Source: Caloramator sp.
Lineage (GTDB): Bacteria; Bacillota; Clostridia; Clostridiales; Caloramatoraceae
DNA length: 41,778 nucleotides
Direction of reading: 5' to 3'
Assembly: GCA_026418935.1 (NCBI GenBank)
Contig: JAOAAJ010000082.1
Location: forward strand, 1 to 41,778
Below, piece by piece: positions 292 to 41,468 of this stretch; position 1 is the first letter of the stretch, and every line of letters starts with the position of its first letter. The translations under genes were made by a program, and so were the position numbers. The notes beneath the pieces are model-generated. The model saw only the letters and a program-made list of their open reading frames with translations. It made no database searches and was not told the DNA's origin.

Positions 292-366
292 TCCACGGTA
301 GCTCAATGGTGGAGCATTCGGCTGTTAACCGAAGGGTTGGAGGTTCGAGTCCTCTCCGTGGAGCCA
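292..366 (+). tRNA. tRNA-Asn (anticodon GTT), CCA encoded
   Basis: Acceptor TCCACGG/CCGTGGA, anticodon loop ctGTTaa, T-arm GGTTCGAGTCC, encoded GCCA. Confidence 0.95.
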
Positions 367-561: not shown

Positions 562-618
562 TTGAAATAATTTGATTATATTGATATAATAAGAATATGC
601 ACAAATTGTGCACAATTT
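562..618 (+). promoter_or_regulatory. Predicted sigma-A promoter with overlapping palindromic operator, upstream of the luxE-like gene
   Basis: TTGAAA (562-567), 17 nt, TATAAT (585-590); overlapping palindromes TGCACAAATTGTGCA (598-612) and AAATTGTGCACAATTT (603-618). Confidence 0.65.
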
Positions 619-635
619 TCCTTGGGGGGGATTTA

Positions 636-1769
636 ATGAGTTTTTTTAATGATTTTAAGAAAAACCTCGAAGGCCAATATGAAGAATGTCCTGCATATAG
701 AGAGTTGTGCAGAAGAGAAGGGTTTAATCCCTTTAACGATTTAAAAAACGAAGATGATTTAGAATTTGTTCCTTTTATTATGACAACATCTTTTAAAAGG
801 TCTTATGGGTCATTTACGAAACTTTTAAGGGTTGGAGTTGATAAGGTATATAAATGGACTATATCAAGTAGCACAAGTGGAGATCCAAGTATAGTTGGAA
901 GAAGCAGAGAGGATATTGAAACCTTAAGAAAATTTGTTTTAGAAGATGAAATAAGACATAGAGCAGAGAGGGATTATGAGTGTACTTTTTTCCCAAAAGC
1001 AGAAGAAATGAAGGCGTTTAACAGAGGTATGTTTTTAAATAAAGTATGTGAATCCTATTTAGGAAATATTGTAGATATATATACTTATTTAGAGCAGACA
1101 ATATTTTTGCTGAAACTTCAGGATGGAAAAATGATATTAGATATTGAACCTTTTATAGAGTATATTAAGGAACACAATGGAAAAAATCATCGTGCAGCAT
1201 TAGGTGGTTCTACGCCTTTGATTTTTAAAACAGTATTAAATCTAAAGGAAAAAATGAAACCCGTTGAACTTGGAGATAGAGCGATTCTTCATACAGGCGG
1301 TGGTGGATGGGACGGAAGAAAAGGAAATATAAATATAGGTGCCTTTATTGAAAGATGGAGGTTTGTAGAGGAGGTATCTAATTTCTTAGGTATACCACAG
1401 GAAAACTTTACAGATACATACTCCTTTACAGAAAATAGTTTTACAATGACAGGCCACTATAGTAGAGAGCATAGGGATTATCTATTCCACGTCCCAGAAT
1501 TTGCAAGAGTTATAGTAAGAGATGTAAAAACACTAAAGCCTGTTAAGGAGGGACAAAGAGGATTTATTCAGGTTTTAAATGCCTATGGAACATCAGCCTT
1601 TGCTGGTGCAAGTATTCTTGTTGATGATATAGGAGAGGTGGTTTCCTATACAAAGTGTCCTGAATGTGGTTATAAAGGTATGGTTATTAAACTTTTAGGT
1701 AGAGTCAAGGGGACAGAGGCAAAGGGATGTGGTGCTACCTTAGGAGGTGATGGGGTTGGAAACAATTAA
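636..1769 (+). CDS. LuxE-like acyl-protein synthetase / acyl-adenylating enzyme
   Basis: Adenylate-forming motif ISSSTSGDPS, HTGGGGWDGRKG and TDTYSFTE blocks; ATG at 636 has an RBS-like ggggg upstream (ORF track begins at 597). Confidence 0.82.
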   Translation: MSFFNDFKKNLEGQYEECPAYRELCRREGFNPFNDLKNEDDLEFVPFIMTTSFKRSYGSFTKLLRVGVDKVYKWTISSSTSGDPSIVGRSREDIETLRKFVLEDEIRHRAERDYECTFFPKAEEMKAFNRGMFLNKVCESYLGNIVDIYTYLEQTIFLLKLQDGKMILDIEPFIEYIKEHNGKNHRAALGGSTPLIFKTVLNLKEKMKPVELGDRAILHTGGGGWDGRKGNINIGAFIERWRFVEEVSNFLGIPQENFTDTYSFTENSFTMTGHYSREHRDYLFHVPEFARVIVRDVKTLKPVKEGQRGFIQVLNAYGTSAFAGASILVDDIGEVVSYTKCPECGYKGMVIKLLGRVKGTEAKGCGATLGGDGVGNN

Positions 1770-3081
1770 AAGGGATTATAATGGCTGTTATGTAGATGTT
1801 GCTGTATATGATATTTCTGATATAAAGTCAGAAGTTGTAAGGCTTAAGGAGAATAAATATAGAGCACACAATATAAAAACAGAAGAAACGCTAAATATAC
1901 TTGATTTGTGTGCTAAAAAGTGGCTTGATAGAGACTATTCTAAAAAACACGTTGAGCACATAGCAAAGATAACAAATCAAAGTGAAGAGATGGTTTTGTT
2001 TGAACTTGAAAATGCAATGCAGGGTCTTTTAATGGAAAATACAAAAAAGTTAATAGAGGAAGAATTAAAGAGAGAGGATATTTTAGACAATTGGGTGCCT
2101 ACCCATTATGGCTTAGTGCATAGGCAACCTCGTGGGTTAGTATTCCACAACGTATCAGGCAATGCCTTTATAGTAATACCAGTTAGTATTGCTATGGGGC
2201 TTATATCTAAAAATGTTAACTTAGTAAAGGTATCAAAGGATGAACCCTATTTTGCCAATGCCTTTTATAAAAGCCTAATGGAGATAGATGAGTCAATTAA
2301 GGAAAGATTATCTATAGTTTACTTTGATAGTTCCTCAACGGACATATACGACTATGTAGTTTCAAATTCGGATTGTGTTGTTCACTGGGGAGGAAAAACA
2401 TCAAGGGATTATATGGCTAATTTGTGTGCCAAACATTCTGTTCACTTTATAGAACACGGGCCTAAGATAAGCTTTGAGGTTATAGATAAAGAACCAAGCA
2501 TAGATGAAATAAAAGGTATAGCACTTGATATGTCATTGTGGGAACAGAAGGCCTGTTTATCACCAAGGATTGTTTTCCTAAATACATCAATAAATAAAGA
2601 ACAATTCCTTGAACAATTTAGGTCCTGTTTAGAGGAAATAAACGAAGTATTACCTAAAGGTTACTATGATTATTTTTCTTCTATAAAAATACTTCAGGAT
2701 AGACAAAACCTACTTCTAAAGAATTTAGATAATCCAAACTTTGATATGTTATGTAGTAAAAATTCAGACTACACTATTGTTTACTCAAAGGATTTTCCAA
2801 GAAACAATGAAATAGATATGTGCTTTGGAAGGTTTATCTATGTTTGTCCATACAACGATAAGAAAGAAGTTATAGACTATATTAATACTTATCTAAAGGG
2901 ATATCTTCAAACAATGGGATACTGTGGTAATGATTTAGAATTTATTGAACAAGTAACATTATGTGGTGTTAGCATTGTTACTAAGTTGGGTGAAATGTCA
3001 CTTCATAAGAATGGTACATCACACGATGGAATATATAATTTAAGTGAATTAACCTATGTTGTTAGTTACCAGAGAGATTAG
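1750..3081 (+). CDS. LuxC-like acyl-CoA/acyl-protein reductase
   Basis: HRQPRGLVFHNVSGNAF, VHWGGKTSRDY and catalytic-Cys WEQKACLSPR motifs; overlaps the luxE-like 3' end; TTG at 1756 is a better-spaced alternative start after AGGAGG. Confidence 0.82.
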   Translation: MGLETIKRDYNGCYVDVAVYDISDIKSEVVRLKENKYRAHNIKTEETLNILDLCAKKWLDRDYSKKHVEHIAKITNQSEEMVLFELENAMQGLLMENTKKLIEEELKREDILDNWVPTHYGLVHRQPRGLVFHNVSGNAFIVIPVSIAMGLISKNVNLVKVSKDEPYFANAFYKSLMEIDESIKERLSIVYFDSSSTDIYDYVVSNSDCVVHWGGKTSRDYMANLCAKHSVHFIEHGPKISFEVIDKEPSIDEIKGIALDMSLWEQKACLSPRIVFLNTSINKEQFLEQFRSCLEEINEVLPKGYYDYFSSIKILQDRQNLLLKNLDNPNFDMLCSKNSDYTIVYSKDFPRNNEIDMCFGRFIYVCPYNDKKEVIDYINTYLKGYLQTMGYCGNDLEFIEQVTLCGVSIVTKLGEMSLHKNGTSHDGIYNLSELTYVVSYQRD

Positions 3082-3091
3082 GGGGGATAGT

Positions 3092-4492
3092 ATGAAGGTA
3101 AAAGAATATTATAGGGATTTTATAACTGTTGATGAAGCATTAAATTTTAAGAGAAATGATGTAAGGGAAAACTACAAAGAATATGTTAATTCTGCTGCAG
3201 TACAGCTTTTAGGGCTATTAGACTTTGATAAACACTTTGTAAAGGCAAAGGGTACAAAGGTGTATGATGAAGATGGAAAAGAGTATATAGACTTTTTAGG
3301 TGGATATGGTGCCTTAAATGTAGGTCATAACAACGAATATGTTTTAGAAGGAATTAAAAAGGCTGTAGGTCTACCAAATATATTACAAGCATCTATATAT
3401 AATTTTGCGGGTGCACTTGCTAAAAACCTATCTCTTTTAACAGGAGGACAGCTAAAAAGAACCTTCTTTGCAAATAGTGGTGCTGAAGCTGTTGAAGGTG
3501 CACTTAAAATAGCAAAGATTGCAAGTGGTAAAAGTAAGATAGCATATTGTCAAAACTCCTTCCACGGTAAATCAATGGGAGCACTATCTGTAACAGGAAG
3601 AGAAAAATATCAAAATCCATTTAAGCCTTTAGTTCCTGATTGCTATCCTGTTCCTTATGGTGATGATAAGGCTCTTGAAGACTTAATTAAAATGGGAGGT
3701 TTTGCAGCCTTTATTGTAGAACCAATTCAAGGGGAAGGAGGAATAAACGTTCCGCCTTCAGGATATTTAAGAAAAGCAAGGGAAATATGTGATAAGTATG
3801 GTGTATATTTAATTGTTGATGAAATACAAACAGGTTTTGGAAGAACAGGATATATGTTTGCATATCAAGCTGAGGAAATAGTCCCAGATATAATGTGTTT
3901 TGCAAAATCAATTGGTGGAGGAATAATGCCAATTGGAGGATATATTGCAAAGGATGAGATATGGAAGAAGGCCTATGGTTCTGTTGATAAAGCCTTTTTA
4001 CATACATCAACTTTTGGAGGAAATACATTAGCCTGTGCAGCAGGAATTGCAACTATTGAATATTTGGTTGAAAATCATCTTGATAGACAGGCAAAGGAGA
4101 AGGGAGACTATTTTATAAAGAAGCTTTTGGAACTTAAGGCAAAATATCCAGTAATAAAGGATGTAAGAGGACGCGGACTTATGATTGGACTTGAGTTTGA
4201 GGAACCAAAGGGAATACTTAATAAGATTACCGCTGGAAAACTATCAGAATTATCTAAGGAATATTTCGCATCTTTAGTTGCTGGAAAGCTTATGAATGAA
4301 TATGGAATTATAACTGCCTACACATTAAATAATCCTAACGTTATAAGACTTGAACCACCTCTAATAGTAGGATATGATGAGATTGATAAAGTAATATTTG
4401 CATTAGAGGATATATTTGAGAAAAACGGAGGATTTTTAAGTCTTGGATTGGAAAGTGGAAAACAGGTAATAAAGTCTTTATTTAAAAAATAG
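3092..4492 (+). CDS. Class III PLP aminotransferase (ornithine/putrescine/acetylornithine aminotransferase superfamily)
   Basis: FLGGYGALNVGHN, DEIQTGFGRTG, PLP-Lys motif FAKSIGGG, STFGGNTLACAAG; ATG at 3092 after an RBS. Confidence 0.88.
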   Translation: MKVKEYYRDFITVDEALNFKRNDVRENYKEYVNSAAVQLLGLLDFDKHFVKAKGTKVYDEDGKEYIDFLGGYGALNVGHNNEYVLEGIKKAVGLPNILQASIYNFAGALAKNLSLLTGGQLKRTFFANSGAEAVEGALKIAKIASGKSKIAYCQNSFHGKSMGALSVTGREKYQNPFKPLVPDCYPVPYGDDKALEDLIKMGGFAAFIVEPIQGEGGINVPPSGYLRKAREICDKYGVYLIVDEIQTGFGRTGYMFAYQAEEIVPDIMCFAKSIGGGIMPIGGYIAKDEIWKKAYGSVDKAFLHTSTFGGNTLACAAGIATIEYLVENHLDRQAKEKGDYFIKKLLELKAKYPVIKDVRGRGLMIGLEFEEPKGILNKITAGKLSELSKEYFASLVAGKLMNEYGIITAYTLNNPNVIRLEPPLIVGYDEIDKVIFALEDIFEKNGGFLSLGLESGKQVIKSLFKK

Positions 4493-4518
4493 TGGCTAAA
4501 ATTTTAGCCACTATTTTT
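4485..4518. terminator. Perfect 34-nt palindrome, bidirectional terminator between convergent genes
   Basis: AAAAATAGTGGCTAAAATTTTAGCCACTATTTTT; contains both stop codons (TAG 4490-4492 and, on the minus strand, 4511-4513). Confidence 0.88.
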
Positions 4519-6186: not shown

Positions 6187-6199
6187 AGGGGCGATGTGT

Positions 6200-9100
6200 A
6201 TGGGATTTTCTAAAAATGCTATTAAGGTATTAGAAAAGAGATATTTGGCAAAGGATGAGGATGGAAACATAATAGAGACTCCAGATGAAATGTTACATAG
6301 AGTAGCAACAAAAGTTGCAGAGGCAGATAAGTTTTATGATGAAAATGCTGATATAGAAAAGACAAAACAAACTTTTTATGAAATGATGAAAAGTCTAAAC
6401 TTTCTTCCTAACTCTCCAACTTTAATGAATGCAGGAAGGCCTCTTGGTCAGCTTTCTGCTTGTTTTGTGCTGCCTGTTGAAGATTCAATGGAGGGTATAT
6501 TTGACTCTATAAAGAATGCAGCACTTATTCATAAATCAGGTGGTGGAACTGGGTTTAGCTTCTCAAGATTAAGACCAAGCGGTTCGAGTGTAAAATCAAC
6601 AGGAGGAGTTGCTTCAGGTCCTGTTAGTTTTATGAAGGTGTTTGATGCAGCAACAGAGGCAGTAAAGCAGGGGGGAACCAGAAGGGGTGCTAATATGGGT
6701 ATCCTCCGTATTGACCATCCTGATATTTTAGAGTTTATAAAGTGTAAAGAAGATAACAATGCGATTAATAATTTTAATATAAGTGTTGCAGTTACTGAAA
6801 AATTTATGGAGGCTGTGATAAAGGGAGAAGATTATGATTTGATAGACCCTAATACCAAGAAGGTGAAGGGTAGATTAAATGCAAGAGAGGTTTTTGATTT
6901 AATTGTTAAGATGGCGTGGAAAAATGGAGAACCTGGTATAGTTTTTATAGATAGGATGAACAAGTTTAACCCTACACCTAATTTAGGAGAAATAGAGAGT
7001 ACTAATCCTTGTTTGCATAAAGACACCTTGATATCCACAAAGGAAGGTTTAAAAAAAATATCTGAATTGTATAGTGAGTATGGGGACAAAGAGGTTGAAA
7101 TATTAACAGATAACAGGGTATTAAATGAAGGAATTGGAATTACTGTAAGGAGTGCAAAAATAATAAAAACGGGAATTAGAAAAACATTAAGGATAGAGTT
7201 AAGCAATGGACAATATCTTATGTTAACACCAGAACATAAGGTTATGACTATAGATGGATGGAAGATGGCTAAAGATTTATCTGTAGAAGATGAAGTTTTG
7301 GTACAAAGTGGAGATGGTGTGCTTGTAAAAGAAGACAGTATTGGAAGTGAACTTGGATTTTTATTAGGATATATATTAGGAGATGGTTGGCTTACTTTTG
7401 ATGGAAAGGTTTTAGGTGCTGTGTTTGCAGAAAGTGAAAAATATATAATGGATAAAATACAGGAGATTTCGCAGAAATATAATGGTGGAAAAGGAATAGT
7501 AAATTGGAGAGAAAATGGTACTTGGCAAATATTATTTAAAAGAAAGGAATTTGTTGAAAAGATAAAGGAACTTGGAATAGAAGGGAAAAAGGCACCTTTT
7601 AAGAGGGTTCCAAAGTCTATATTTACAGCCTCTAAGGAGACAATTGCAGCTTTTTTAGATGGTATTTTTAGTGCAGATGGTACTGTAAATTATATAGATG
7701 AAGACTATCGAGATGTTAGATTGTCTTCTGCTTCTAAGGATTTACTACTTGATGTTCAATTAATTCTTTTAAATTTAGGAATAACAAGTAAGGTTTATAA
7801 TAGAACAAAGAAAAATCAAGCACAATTTAAATATAGAAATAAAAATGGTGAAGAGAAGACTTATACAAGTAATAACTTTTATGAGTTAGTTATAAATGGA
7901 AATGATATTATTAAATTTAAAGATGTAATAGGTGGCTTTACACATATAGAAAAAAATCAAAAATTAAATGAGATTTGTAGAGAATCGCATAAGAATATAT
8001 ATTATAAGTTTAAAGTTAAAGAGATAAAAGAATGGGAAGAGTGTGAGGTTTATGATGTTATAGAGCCAGTTACAAATTCACTTATAGCAAATGGAATAGT
8101 AGTACACAACTGCGGTGAGCAGCCGCTACTTCCCTTTGAGAGCTGTAATTTAGGCTCAATAAACCTTGCAAATATGGTTAAGTGGAATGGAAAAGGGTAT
8201 GAAGTAGATTATGAACTTTTAGAGGAGACGGTATTTAATGCAGTTCACTTTTTAGATAATGTAATTGATGTTAATGTATATCCTTTGAAGGAAATAGAAG
8301 CTATGACAAAAAGAACAAGAAAAATAGGCCTTGGTGTGATGGGATTTTCTGATATGCTAATAAAACTTAATGTACCTTATAATTCAGAAAAGGCAGTTAA
8401 TATAGCAGAAGAAGTAATGAAATTTATAAACGATAAATCAAAGGAAGCAAGTAGAAGGCTTGCAAAACTTAGGGGAGAGTTCCCAGAGTTTAAAAATAGT
8501 GTATACAAAGATGGAGAACCATTAAGAAATGCTACAACGACTACAATAGCACCAACAGGTACAATAAGTATAATAGCAGGGGTGTCATCAGGTATAGAAC
8601 CACTATTTGCATTAGCCTTTTGGAGAAATGTAATGGATAATGAAAGACTTGTTGAAATGAACTATCTGCTTGAAAATGTATTAAGGCAGAAGGGCCTTTA
8701 TACAAAGGACCTTATAGATAAAATAGCCGATAGAGGAACGTTAGAAGGGATTAAGGAAGTACCAGAGGATTTAAAGAAGATATTTGTAACAGCTCACGAA
8801 ATAGAACCAATATGGCACATAAAGATGCAGGCAGCCTTTCAAAAGTATACTGATAACGCTGTATCCAAAACAGTAAACTTTAAAAATTCTGCTACAGTAG
8901 ATGATGTAAAGACTGTATATCTTCTTGCCTATAGGCTTGGCTGTAAGGGTGTTACGATTTATAGAGATGGAAGTAGAGAAGGTCAGGTTATAAACATAGG
9001 AAAAGACAAGGAAGCTAAAGTTGATGAGCATATTCCAAGAGAGCGTCCAGAAATAACTATGGGTATAACCGAAAAGGTTAGGGTAGGATGTGGAAATCTT

Positions 9101-9541
9101 TATATTACAGTTAACTATGATGATAATGGAATATGTGAGGTATTCACAAATGTAGGTAAAGCTGGTGGATGTCCATCACAATCCGAAGCTACGGCAAGGC
9201 TTGTGTCAATAGCCTTAAGAAGTGGTATGGATGTAAAGGAAATTATAGAACAGTTAAAGGGAATAAGGTGTCATTCAACTTTAAGACAAAGAGCAAACAA
9301 TAAGGATATAAAAGTTTTATCCTGTCCTGATGCTATAGCAAGAACAATAGAAACATTAATAGATATAAAAAAGGTTGGAGGCTTTAGGGATTTAAATATT
9401 AAACCTGCTGATGAAATTGAGGACTTGATTGCAAATTCAAGTAAGAAATCAAAAATTAAATGCCCAGAGTGTGGAAATGAAATAACTCATCAGGATGGAT
9501 GTGTAATATGTCCAAGTTGTGGATATTCTAAATGTAGTTAG
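6200..9541 (+). CDS. nrdJ: Adenosylcobalamin-dependent (class II) ribonucleoside-diphosphate reductase containing an intein
   Basis: [64 protein letters not shown] (split), C-terminal zinc-ribbon [28 protein letters not shown] at 6200 better spaced to AAGGGG than 6194. Confidence 0.92.
7010..8110 (+). mobile_element. In-frame intein (367 aa) with LAGLIDADG homing endonuclease domain
   Basis: Starts [21 protein letters not shown] block B; LGYILGDG and LDGIFSADG dodecapeptide motifs; ends [11 protein letters not shown] followed by extein Cys. Confidence 0.93.
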
Positions 9542-9565
9542 GGTGTAGAACTTTCTACACCCTAA
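9538..9565. terminator. Shared terminator palindrome between convergent genes
   Basis: TTAGGGTGTAGAA-CT-TTCTACACCCTAA; both flanking stop codons lie inside. Confidence 0.8.
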
Positions 9566-11672
9566 ACTTATTTACAGAGGTATTTAGATTTCCAGATAGA
9601 TGAATTAGATTATCTGCCTGAAGTTTAATATTTTTTATTTCCTCAATCTGATTTAAAACGTGTAGTGAAGATGCTTCAGCCGTCTCTAAAAACTGGTCTG
9701 ATACAGCTAAAGTATTCTTTATACTATTTTCAAGGCTACTGCTTTTAGTTGTAATTTCATTTATTGTATCATACATATTATTTAATGAATATAGCATTTT
9801 CTCAACAGTACCATTTAAATATTCGAAGGAGTTTTCTGTTGTTTTTACTGCATCGCTTTGATTAAATATATTTTCTTTTATAGTTTTTGTATATTCAATA
9901 GTAGAATTAGTTAGTTTGTGTATATCCTCAATAATTTTTCTAATATTGTTTGTAGATAGATTAGTTTCTTCTGAAAGCTTTCTTATTTCATTTGCAACAA
10001 CAGAGAAGCTTCTTCCAGCATCTCCAGCACGTGCGGCTTCAATAGATGCATTAAGTGCAAGAAGGTTGGTTTGGGAGGATATTTGATTAATTACAGTAAT
10101 AACAGAGTTTATATTTTTTATATGCTCAACAAGTAGGCCTATTTGGTTTTCAATATCCTGCATTGATTTTATAGTTTCATTATTCTTTTCCTTTAGGTTG
10201 TTAATTGACTGTAATGCAACTTTATTTGAGTTTTCTATGTTATGGCTTTCCTCTATAAGTTCACATCTTTTTACATTTAATATTTTAGCATCTTCTACAA
10301 AGGCCTTTGCTAATTCAATTGAACTTGTAATTTCCTTCTTTTGGTTTTCTGTTCCTATTGATATTTCCCTCATAGCAATTTCAACAATATCAGAACCTTG
10401 TAGTAGTGATACTGCATCATTATTTAGATTTTGGGACGAATTGACTAATATATCTGAAGCAGACTGTATTTGTTCTATAAGTTGTTTCATATTTAAAAGC
10501 ATTTTATTTAAATATCCTGCAAGTTCACCAAATTCATCCTTTGAATCAATAACAACATCAACGGTTAAATCTCCTTGTCCTATTGTATCCATATATTTTG
10601 AAAGTTTCTTAAGCTTTTTATTTATGTTATTTGAGAAAATATAACCAATAATAATTGATACCACAATAAATATTATAAATACACCAGCCATTATATAAAA
10701 CATAAACAACGATTTAGAGTATATATCTTTTTTGCTTATTTGAGTAATTACCTTCCAATTAGATTTAAAGTTATTTTGGTAAAATATAAAGCTTTTGTTA
10801 TTATTGAATTCAGCTTGTTTTAAGCTTTTTTTACCTGATAGTATTTCCTTGGTAATATTTTTATCCTTTATATATTCATTAATATCTTTATTTATATATT
10901 GAGCCTGTCTTGTTGTAATTATTTTTCCATTTGAATCAAGAAGGAATACTTGTCCACTATTTTCTGTTATAAAGCCCTCAAAGGATTTTAAAAAGTCTGT
11001 TAAGGATATTGTAAACCCAACTATACCAGCAATATTGTTTTCATTATCATATATTGTTTTTGTAAGTACTATAGAAGTTTTATTATTTCCCTTTTCCTTT
11101 ATAGTATTGCTCCAGTAGGGATTATTGAAGTTGTTTATTGTTTTGCTATAAATATCCGAAGTATGAGAAACATCTATGTTTAAACTGTTATTAGGGAAAA
11201 AATAAATATGTCCATCCTTGTTAGAAATAAAAACGTTTTTTATGTTTATGTTGGAAGACATAACCTTCTTAAATTCATCATTAAGCACAGCTTGGTTTAA
11301 GTCATATAAATGTGTCTTTATGGTATTGTTTTCAGCAAAAAGAGTAAGTAGACCCTCAAAGGATGATAGCTTTTCATTGATTAAATTGTTTAACCTTTCA
11401 GAGGTTTGTTCAATGGCACTTGTATAATTTTTTTCAATAGTTTTAATTAAGAAAGAGCTTGATATTAGACCAGATATAAGTACTGGTAGAAGAGATATTA
11501 GTAGCATTATAGATATGATTTGATTTTTTACTGTTTTTAGGTTTAACTTTTTTAGTTTGGATCTTTTAAAATTGATATTTTTTAGATTGGAATCAAATTG
11601 TTTAAACTTAAATTTCTTAAGCTTAAACGTTGGTAATTTAATATTAACTTTTTTTAGAAATTCAAAATTCAT
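9555..11672 (-). CDS. Methyl-accepting chemotaxis protein with Cache-type extracellular sensor, HAMP and MCP signalling domains
   Basis: Two TM segments, HAMP-like region, MCP hairpin tip [43 protein letters not shown]. Confidence 0.93.
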
Positions 11673-39812: not shown

Positions 39813-39824
39813 AAAATAAAAGGC

Positions 39825-40037
39825 TATGAAGGGAAGAATAAGGAATTAATCCATTTCAGAGAGTAGCTGCCTTAGGCTGTGAGCAGCTATATGGACACTC
39901 CTTTAGTGCGTCCTTGAGCTTTTCTGCCGAAGTTTAAGTAGGTAGAAACGGTAATTCCGTTATAATTTTGAGTGAGGCTTTTGCCTAATTAGAGTGGAAC
40001 CACGGAGTGCCCCTTCGTCTCTAAGGAGATGGAGGGG
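39825..40037 (+). ncRNA. T-box leader (tRNA-sensing riboswitch) of cysS
   Basis: T-box core AGAGTGGAACCACGG (39991-40005); 12-bp terminator CCCCTTCGTCTC-TAAG-GAGATGGAGGGG (40010-40037); candidate specifier TGC at 39907-39909. Confidence 0.88.
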
Positions 40038-40064
40038 TTAATTTATATAAAAAGAGGTGATGTT

Positions 40065-41468
40065 ATGGGAATTAAGGTTTTTAATACTATGACAAGACAA
40101 AAGGAGGATTTTGTAACAGTAGAACCTGGTGTTGTAAAAATGTATGTATGTGGGCCAACTGTCTACAACTTCTTTCACATTGGTAATGCAAGAACCTTCA
40201 TTGTATTCGACACAATTAGAAGATACCTTGAGTATAGGGGATATCAAGTAAAATTCATTCAAAACTTTACAGACATTGATGACAAAATGATTAAGAGGGC
40301 TAATGAAGAGGGAGTTACTGTAAAGGATGTAGCTGAAAAATATATTAATGAGTATTACAAGGATGCAGATGCATTAAATTTAAAAAGAGCAACTGTAAAT
40401 CCAAGAGCAACAGAATATATAAATGAAATTATAAAGTTTGTAAAGGATTTAGAAGATAAGGGATTTGCCTATGCTGTTGATGGGGATGTTTATTTTGATA
40501 CAACGAAATTTAAAGAATACGGAAAGCTTAGCCATCAAAGTATAGAGGATTTAGAGGCTGGTGCAAGAATAGAAGTAGATGAAAGAAAGAGAAATCCTAT
40601 GGATTTTGCACTTTGGAAGGCAAAGAAGGAGGGAGAACCAGCTTGGGAGAGTCCTTGGGGAGAAGGAAGACCAGGTTGGCATATAGAGTGTTCTACAATG
40701 GCTTGTTCATTACTTGGTGAAACAATAGATATTCACGGTGGAGGAGCAGACTTAGTATTCCCTCACCACGAAAATGAAATAGCACAAAGTGAAGCAAGAA
40801 ATGGAAAACCATTTGCAAGATACTGGATGCATGCTGCTTACTTAAATGTTAACAATCAAAAGATGTCAAAATCACTAAATAACTTCTTTACAGCAAGAGA
40901 AATACTTGAAAAGTATGATGCGGAAGTTATAAGAATGTTTATGTTATCTGGACACTACAGAAATCCAATCAACTTCAGCCTTGATTTATTAGAACAGGCA
41001 AAGGCTGGACTTGAGAGAATTTATAATTCAATAGCAAACCTTGAACATGTAATTGAAGTTTCAAACTATGACACAATAAAAGAAGAGGAAAAAGCATTTA
41101 GCTCTAAACTTGATGAATATAAAAATAGATTCATTGAAGTTATGGATGATGATTTCAATACTGCAGATGCAATTTCTGTTATATTTGATATGGTAAGAGA
41201 TATAAATAGCAATATTAATCTTGAAAGTTCTAAGGAGATTGCAAAGAAGGCGTTAAACTTAATAAGAGAACTTGGTTCACCTCTTGCAATACTTCAAAAG
41301 AATACAAAGGAATCTTTAGATGAAGAAATAGAAAAGCTTATTGAAGAGAGACAAAAGGCAAGAAAAGAAAAGAACTTTGCTCTTGCAGATAAAATAAGAG
41401 ATGATCTTAAGGCAAGAGGAATAATATTAGAGGACACACCACAGGGTGTAAGATGGAAAAGGATATAA
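40065..41468 (+). CDS. cysS: Cysteinyl-tRNA synthetase
   Basis: [69 protein letters not shown] at 40065 after AGAGGTGA. Confidence 0.96.

Follow-up and report, generated by a model that had tools for sequence, protein, structure and literature searches.

The window, a 41,778-nucleotide stretch of DNA from the thermophilic clostridium Caloramator sp., carries a three-gene operon composed of a luxE-like gene for an acyl-activating protein, a luxC-like gene for an acyl reductase and a gene for a class III aminotransferase (AT) (Table 1). An original prediction, made from the DNA letters, described three tightly coupled open reading frames (ORFs) with one promoter and one terminator, and proposed that their products turn an acyl acid through an aldehyde into a primary amine. 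The arrangement is confirmed. The three ORFs are intact; luxE and luxC overlap by 14-23 nt, depending on which of the in-frame luxC start candidates (GTG 1747, ATG 1750 or TTG 1756) is used, and 10 nt separate the luxC stop from the AT gene. An AGGAGG sequence at 1742-1747 suits the TTG start. An alternative upstream start of luxE, ATG 597, overlaps an operator palindrome and is unlikely.

The single promoter and the single terminator are likewise recovered. Since the scanned region holds 18 promoter-like sites, no more than the 23 in shuffled sequence, support for the promoter comes from its conservation: the element also lies 5' of luxE or of AT in relatives. The terminator hairpin, located at the AT stop and common to the operon and a convergent MPG gene, was found by folding and is not listed by the pattern scan that gave the promoter match. 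Directly 5' of the operon, the end of a 23S rRNA gene (Rfam LSU rRNA) adjoins tRNA-Asn, and this tRNA forms a conserved left border, also standing 5' in relatives, whether or not they have luxE-luxC. This border and the operator palindrome go beyond the original prediction. Neither luxA/luxB nor luxD was identified among the adjacent genes or the Pfam-scanned proteins of the window, in a partial scan that did not extend genome-wide; the locus does not have the gene content of a lux bioluminescence operon.

Table 1 Coordinates of the operon and its flanking signals
Feature	Position	Strand	Details
luxE-like acyl-activating protein	636..1769	+	377 aa; Pfam LuxE; 7xc6 LuxE chain
luxC-like acyl reductase	1747..3081	+	444 aa; Pfam LuxC; 7xc6 LuxC chain
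Class III aminotransferase (AT), PigE/TamH/PatA branch	3092..4492	+	466 aa; NCBIfam, PDB, alignment, tree
tRNA-Asn	292..363	+	Rfam tRNA, 68 bits
Promoter TTGAAA-17-TATAAT, extended -10	562..590	+	11/12 consensus; best match in scanned region
Operator palindrome TGCACAAATTGTGCA (TGCACA-AAT-TGTGCA)	598..612	+	15 nt; just past the -10 box
Terminator hairpin, flanking A and T runs	4485..4518		-18.5 kcal/mol, z = -8.1

The three proteins

LuxE and LuxC belong to their Pfam families, scoring 81.3 bits against PF04443 (cut-off 24.9) and 379 bits against PF05893 (cut-off 21), each matching one chain of the solved LuxC-LuxE structure. The catalytic residues on which the original prediction depended are intact in the alignments. 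The acyl-acceptor Cys365 of LuxE, within the motif KGCGATL near the C-terminus, is invariant across 24 homologues, Cys270 of LuxC, within QKACLSP, is invariant across 25, and the pyridoxal phosphate lysine of the AT, Lys272, aligns with Lys300 of Escherichia coli PatA. In homology and in the retained cysteines, the pair resembles the LuxC-LuxE-LuxD fatty acid reductase of bioluminescence; it differs in that no luxD or luciferase was found at this locus, in the gene order (here E-C) and in scores far below the bioluminescence equivalogs, with 64 against 550 bits for LuxE (NF052244, long-chain-fatty-acid--protein ligase) and 137 against 750 bits for LuxC (NF052251).

The AT scores 341.5 bits against PF00202 (Aminotran_3; cut-off 30.5), which places it in class III, and no other Aminotran_3 protein was found in the Caloramator sp. 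genome. Its nearest characterised relative by NCBIfam and PDB sequence score is the prodigiosin enzyme PigE (486 bits; PDB 4ppm), in which a thioester reductase is coupled to a class III aminotransferase. PigE is fused with its N-terminal reductase, whereas the AT has no such domain and stays below the PigE equivalog NF053554 (486 against 850 bits). It also stays below the PatA equivalogs TIGR03372 and NF008570, with 323 and 403 bits against 658.65 and 612. In the tree, a branch with 97/93 support separates the AT, together with PatA, PigE and firmicute homologues, from E. coli ArgD, AstC, GabT and PuuE. A restriction to ornithine or acetylornithine, the possibility that the original prediction had set against itself, appears unlikely from this placement: the AT groups with neither ArgD nor AstC and is not classed as the acetylornithine aminotransferase ArgD.

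The likeness to E. coli PatA (YgjG) extends to 39% identity, an N-terminal extension and most of the substrate-contact residues. In the active-site comparison called for by the original prediction, with putrescine contacts taken from PMC4244111, Gln119, Phe180, Glu243, Phe327, Thr332 and Leu419 are kept, while Phe91 and Tyr402 are replaced by Tyr and Ser. PigE and GabT share some of these contacts, and because PigE keeps several of them they are not diagnostic of substrate. The AT also differs from PatA in its genomic companions, which are acyl reductases.

Distribution of the triplet and of a companion reductase

The luxE-luxC-AT triplet occurs in seven sampled genomes, all within one family: five of five in the genus Caloramator/Thermobrachium (g1) and two of four in its sister genus (g2). 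The predicted co-occurrence in related genomes is therefore found, within this family only. Wherever luxE-luxC occurs in the family, it lies directly upstream of AT (7/7). The filled site, tRNA-Asn-luxE-luxC-AT, is present in g1 and in the g2 genomes G001 and G004, and the empty site, tRNA-Asn-AT, in G002 and G003. In the LuxE tree all members of the family form one clade (100/100), and in the AT tree the g2 species with and without the triplet fall together, a pattern consistent with a single gain of luxE-luxC followed by loss in some species, or with transfer.

As a general clostridial unit, the triplet is rejected. Relatives of luxC (E <= 1e-40) were found in none of 390 other genomes of the class, an even sample that includes few luxE-luxC-bearing lineages, and LuxE-LuxC and AT mostly stand apart. 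A contig scan with exact peptide patterns recovered only three relatives. About 15 Clostridiaceae genomes carry the luxE-luxC pair with varied neighbours and no adjoining AT (luxC 52-59% identical), and none of them contains a close AT homologue. The AT, for its part, occurs in 118 of 349 genomes of the phylum at E <= 1e-110, about one third, usually with no fixed neighbour. Because the two parts occur separately elsewhere, the triplet joins two modules.

Other neighbourhoods are seen around these parts. G009 and genus g3 also have the AT without luxE-luxC, in g3 close to an iron alcohol dehydrogenase. In g3 (L077, L078 and L081) the iron-containing alcohol dehydrogenase gene is upstream of AT, and in L077 and L081 it lies between tRNA-Asn and AT, the slot that luxE-luxC fills in g1. 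Seven other genomes of the class (L096-L102) have AT without luxE-luxC; among them, several of family f25 place it in an alaS/ruvX/fur/RNase J neighbourhood, together with an uncharacterised protein of about 735 aa and an aldo-keto reductase-ferredoxin protein. L053 shows an unusual Lux-type arrangement: next to a LuxE-like gene and one for a GNAT protein, its LuxC-like reductase (7681-10356) continues into a PaaK-like ligase domain; similar proteins of about 885 aa occur in L027, L028, L029 and L031.

The usual companion of the AT is an acyl-ACP-reductase-like protein (AAR). In G429, a 361-aa AAR begins 2 nt after AT and is homologous to the N-terminal domain of PigE and to cyanobacterial acyl-ACP reductase. 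AAR corresponds to the part of PigE and TamH that makes the aldehyde. A search of 80 genomes, with the AT-lacking ones re-read at a relaxed threshold, gives AAR in 46 of 49 AT-bearing against 5 of 14 AT-lacking genomes of the phylum (Fisher p ~1e-5, uncorrected for relatedness). In seven of these genomes AT and AAR are fused into one polypeptide that begins with the AT, the order of TamH, and the three fusions placed in the tree group with PigE (92/80). All nine stand-alone AARs examined and all seven fusions have a cysteine that matches the AAR active site in alignments. No AAR match was obtained in 48 Clostridiaceae genomes, those with AT-like proteins included, a genome set that held no positive control.

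Within the family of the triplet, AAR is present in G001-G004, G006 and G009; genome searches did not find it in the five g1 genomes or in G005 and G007. G001 and G004 thus carry both AAR and luxE-luxC. In distant relatives, AAR often lies within the cluster coaX-dus-c1-c2-AAR-greA-lysS, which in Caloramator sp. reads coaX-dus-c1-c2-greA-lysS; throughout g1, c1-c2 is retained with greA adjoining, yet AAR is absent (5/5). The c2 gene encodes a conserved 300-aa protein beside the helix-turn-helix (HTH) protein c1 and is widespread in the phylum (L236 2864-3793, G000:C27). The L236 protein has no PDB sequence match and its orthologue in L175 no Pfam or NCBIfam match. As c2 is also present in several genomes without AAR, it was rejected as a specific member of the pathway.

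Shared operator and proposed pathway

The operator palindrome, which overlaps a second palindrome ATTGTGCACAAT at 605-616, links AT with AAR. TGCACA-N3-TGTGCA lies directly downstream of the luxE -10 box in all triplet genomes. Every AT-only genome of the family has it at the corresponding place before AT, G003 with one mismatch, and it precedes the unlinked AAR gene in six of six AAR-bearing genomes of the family (one mismatch in G006). Among the matches listed, these two sites are the only exact ones genome-wide in G001, G002 and G004; G006 and G007 have two further exact matches, both within an ORF and discounted. Shuffled sequence gives 2 matches at one mismatch per ~1.9 Mb. On this reading, AT and AAR formed one regulon in the family of the triplet. 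The operator was absent within 300 bp upstream of AT in about 35 loci outside the family, and co-regulation of AT and AAR is therefore shown in this family only.

In several genomes, Caloramator sp. among them (one mismatch), the c1 start also bears the palindrome in a form with one or two mismatches, making the HTH protein a candidate regulator that may bind the operator. It was not seen before luxE of Clostridiaceae. There, a different, ACTGACNNGTCAGT-like palindrome lies upstream of luxE (L039, L040, L041, L044, L045 and L046); it resembles TetR-family operators and suggests separate regulation of luxE-luxC in these genomes.

The shared operator, the insertion of luxE-luxC, the genomes with both systems and the absence of AAR from g1 make conversion of an acyl acid through an aldehyde to a primary amine the best reading of the operon. 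Probably, the task of supplying this pathway with aldehyde passed from AAR to LuxE-LuxC, with the operon encoding the aldehyde-forming and aminating part of the pathway. LuxE would activate a fatty acid, probably long-chain, with ATP, load it onto Cys365 and transfer it to LuxC, which would use NAD(P)H to reduce the acyl-enzyme, giving the aldehyde. From this, the PigE/TamH-type transaminase would form the primary amine with an amino-acid donor. We infer the direction, the substrate chain length and the amino donor as parts of this reading. Judging by the known Lux enzymes, LuxE-LuxC would allow the pathway to begin with free fatty acid, at the cost of ATP, instead of acyl-ACP. In the ancestral state of the family, AAR would have served as the reductase, its gene lying at another site but carrying the AT operator. 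The luxE-luxC pair would then have been inserted between operator and AT, coexisting with AAR, as it still does in two g2 genomes, until AAR was lost in the Caloramator/Thermobrachium genus. By gene content, G001 and G004 look like a surviving intermediate of this replacement. The chemistry proposed in the original prediction is thus supported by the PigE/TamH homology of the AT, its companionship and fusion with AAR, the shared operator and the AAR-less g1 genomes; the triplet as a unit of Clostridia at large is not supported.

Two characterised systems work in the manner proposed. With L-Glu and NADH, TamA-TamH of tambjamine biosynthesis (Pseudoalteromonas tunicata) makes the C12 amine from the C12 acid (PMC9594044). 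PigE acts on a thioester, reducing it to an aldehyde that is then transaminated (PMC8341465). The coupling of an aminotransferase to an aldehyde-forming enzyme recurs in the LuxE-LuxC operon, in the AAR companionship and in the fusions. Adenylating activation of the acid, reduction to aldehyde and transamination to a fatty amine, the sequence of TamA-TamH, is here proposed, and the AT-then-reductase order of TamH is that of the seven firmicute fusions. In contrast, TamA relies on an ACP fused to it and TamH reduces with an AAR-type domain, where separate LuxE and LuxC are found here, and no natural-product cluster is seen at the Caloramator sp. locus.

Several observations weigh against the acyl-to-amine pathway. 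The AT retains residues with which PatA contacts a diamine; the luxE-luxC lineage of the family has a single origin, so that the seven loci represent one or few events; Clostridiaceae with LuxE-LuxC show neither a close homologue of the AT nor, in the search made, an AAR; and G005 and G007 (g3) have AT with neither AAR nor LuxE-LuxC. The main rival is a PatA-like diamine aminotransferase acting on putrescine or cadaverine, with luxE-luxC merely sharing the promoter or serving an unrelated acyl substrate. The six kept contacts, with Tyr in place of Phe91, and the wide occurrence of AT, mostly without luxE-luxC, speak for it. It is nevertheless unlikely, given that the best family and PDB match is PigE rather than PatA, that several of the contacts recur in PigE, and that the AT is persistently accompanied by or fused to an acyl reductase, AAR and AT lying under a common operator in the family.

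LuxE-LuxC could instead supply an aldehyde for another use (an alcohol, a plasmalogen-type lipid or aldehyde salvage), with the AT acting independently in the same regulon. The Clostridiaceae pairs lacking AT and AAR and the iron alcohol dehydrogenase beside AT in g3 would fit such a role, which becomes rather improbable in view of the invariable position of luxE-luxC directly upstream of AT, under its operator, and of the absence of AAR from all five g1 genomes, which bear luxE-luxC. A reverse pathway, leading from an amine that the AT deaminates to an aldehyde that LuxC-LuxE oxidise to the free acid, draws on the reversibility of transaminases and is very improbable, as LuxE is an ATP-driven activating enzyme, the known LuxC and AAR partners work reductively, and an ordinary aldehyde dehydrogenase would be enough for oxidation.

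The acyl-to-amine reading offers a concrete function for non-luminescent LuxE-LuxC and a stepwise enzyme replacement with an apparent surviving intermediate. More tentatively, a dispersed, undescribed AAR and AT pathway for acyl-derived (fatty or other) primary amines may exist in about one third of the sampled Bacillota, its reductase displaced in one lineage by an operator-captured LuxE-LuxC. No description of the triplet, of the firmicute AAR-AT pathway or of its product was found in the open-access literature searched. The reading also points to an amine pathway that is common in anaerobic Firmicutes, has no name so far and may yield a fatty amine, and the operon may be a source of thermophilic fatty-acid-to-amine enzymes.

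Other genes of the window

Downstream of the operon, a ribonucleotide reductase gene (6194-9541) encodes 1115 aa with an internal intein-like stretch ending VVHNC. The orthologue in three g2 genomes (L076, L079 and L050) measures only about 740 aa, and the two lengths suggest a presence/absence polymorphism of an intein. Towards the far end of the window, an ordinary T-box leader (39817-40025) lies upstream of the cysteinyl-tRNA synthetase gene (40029-41468).

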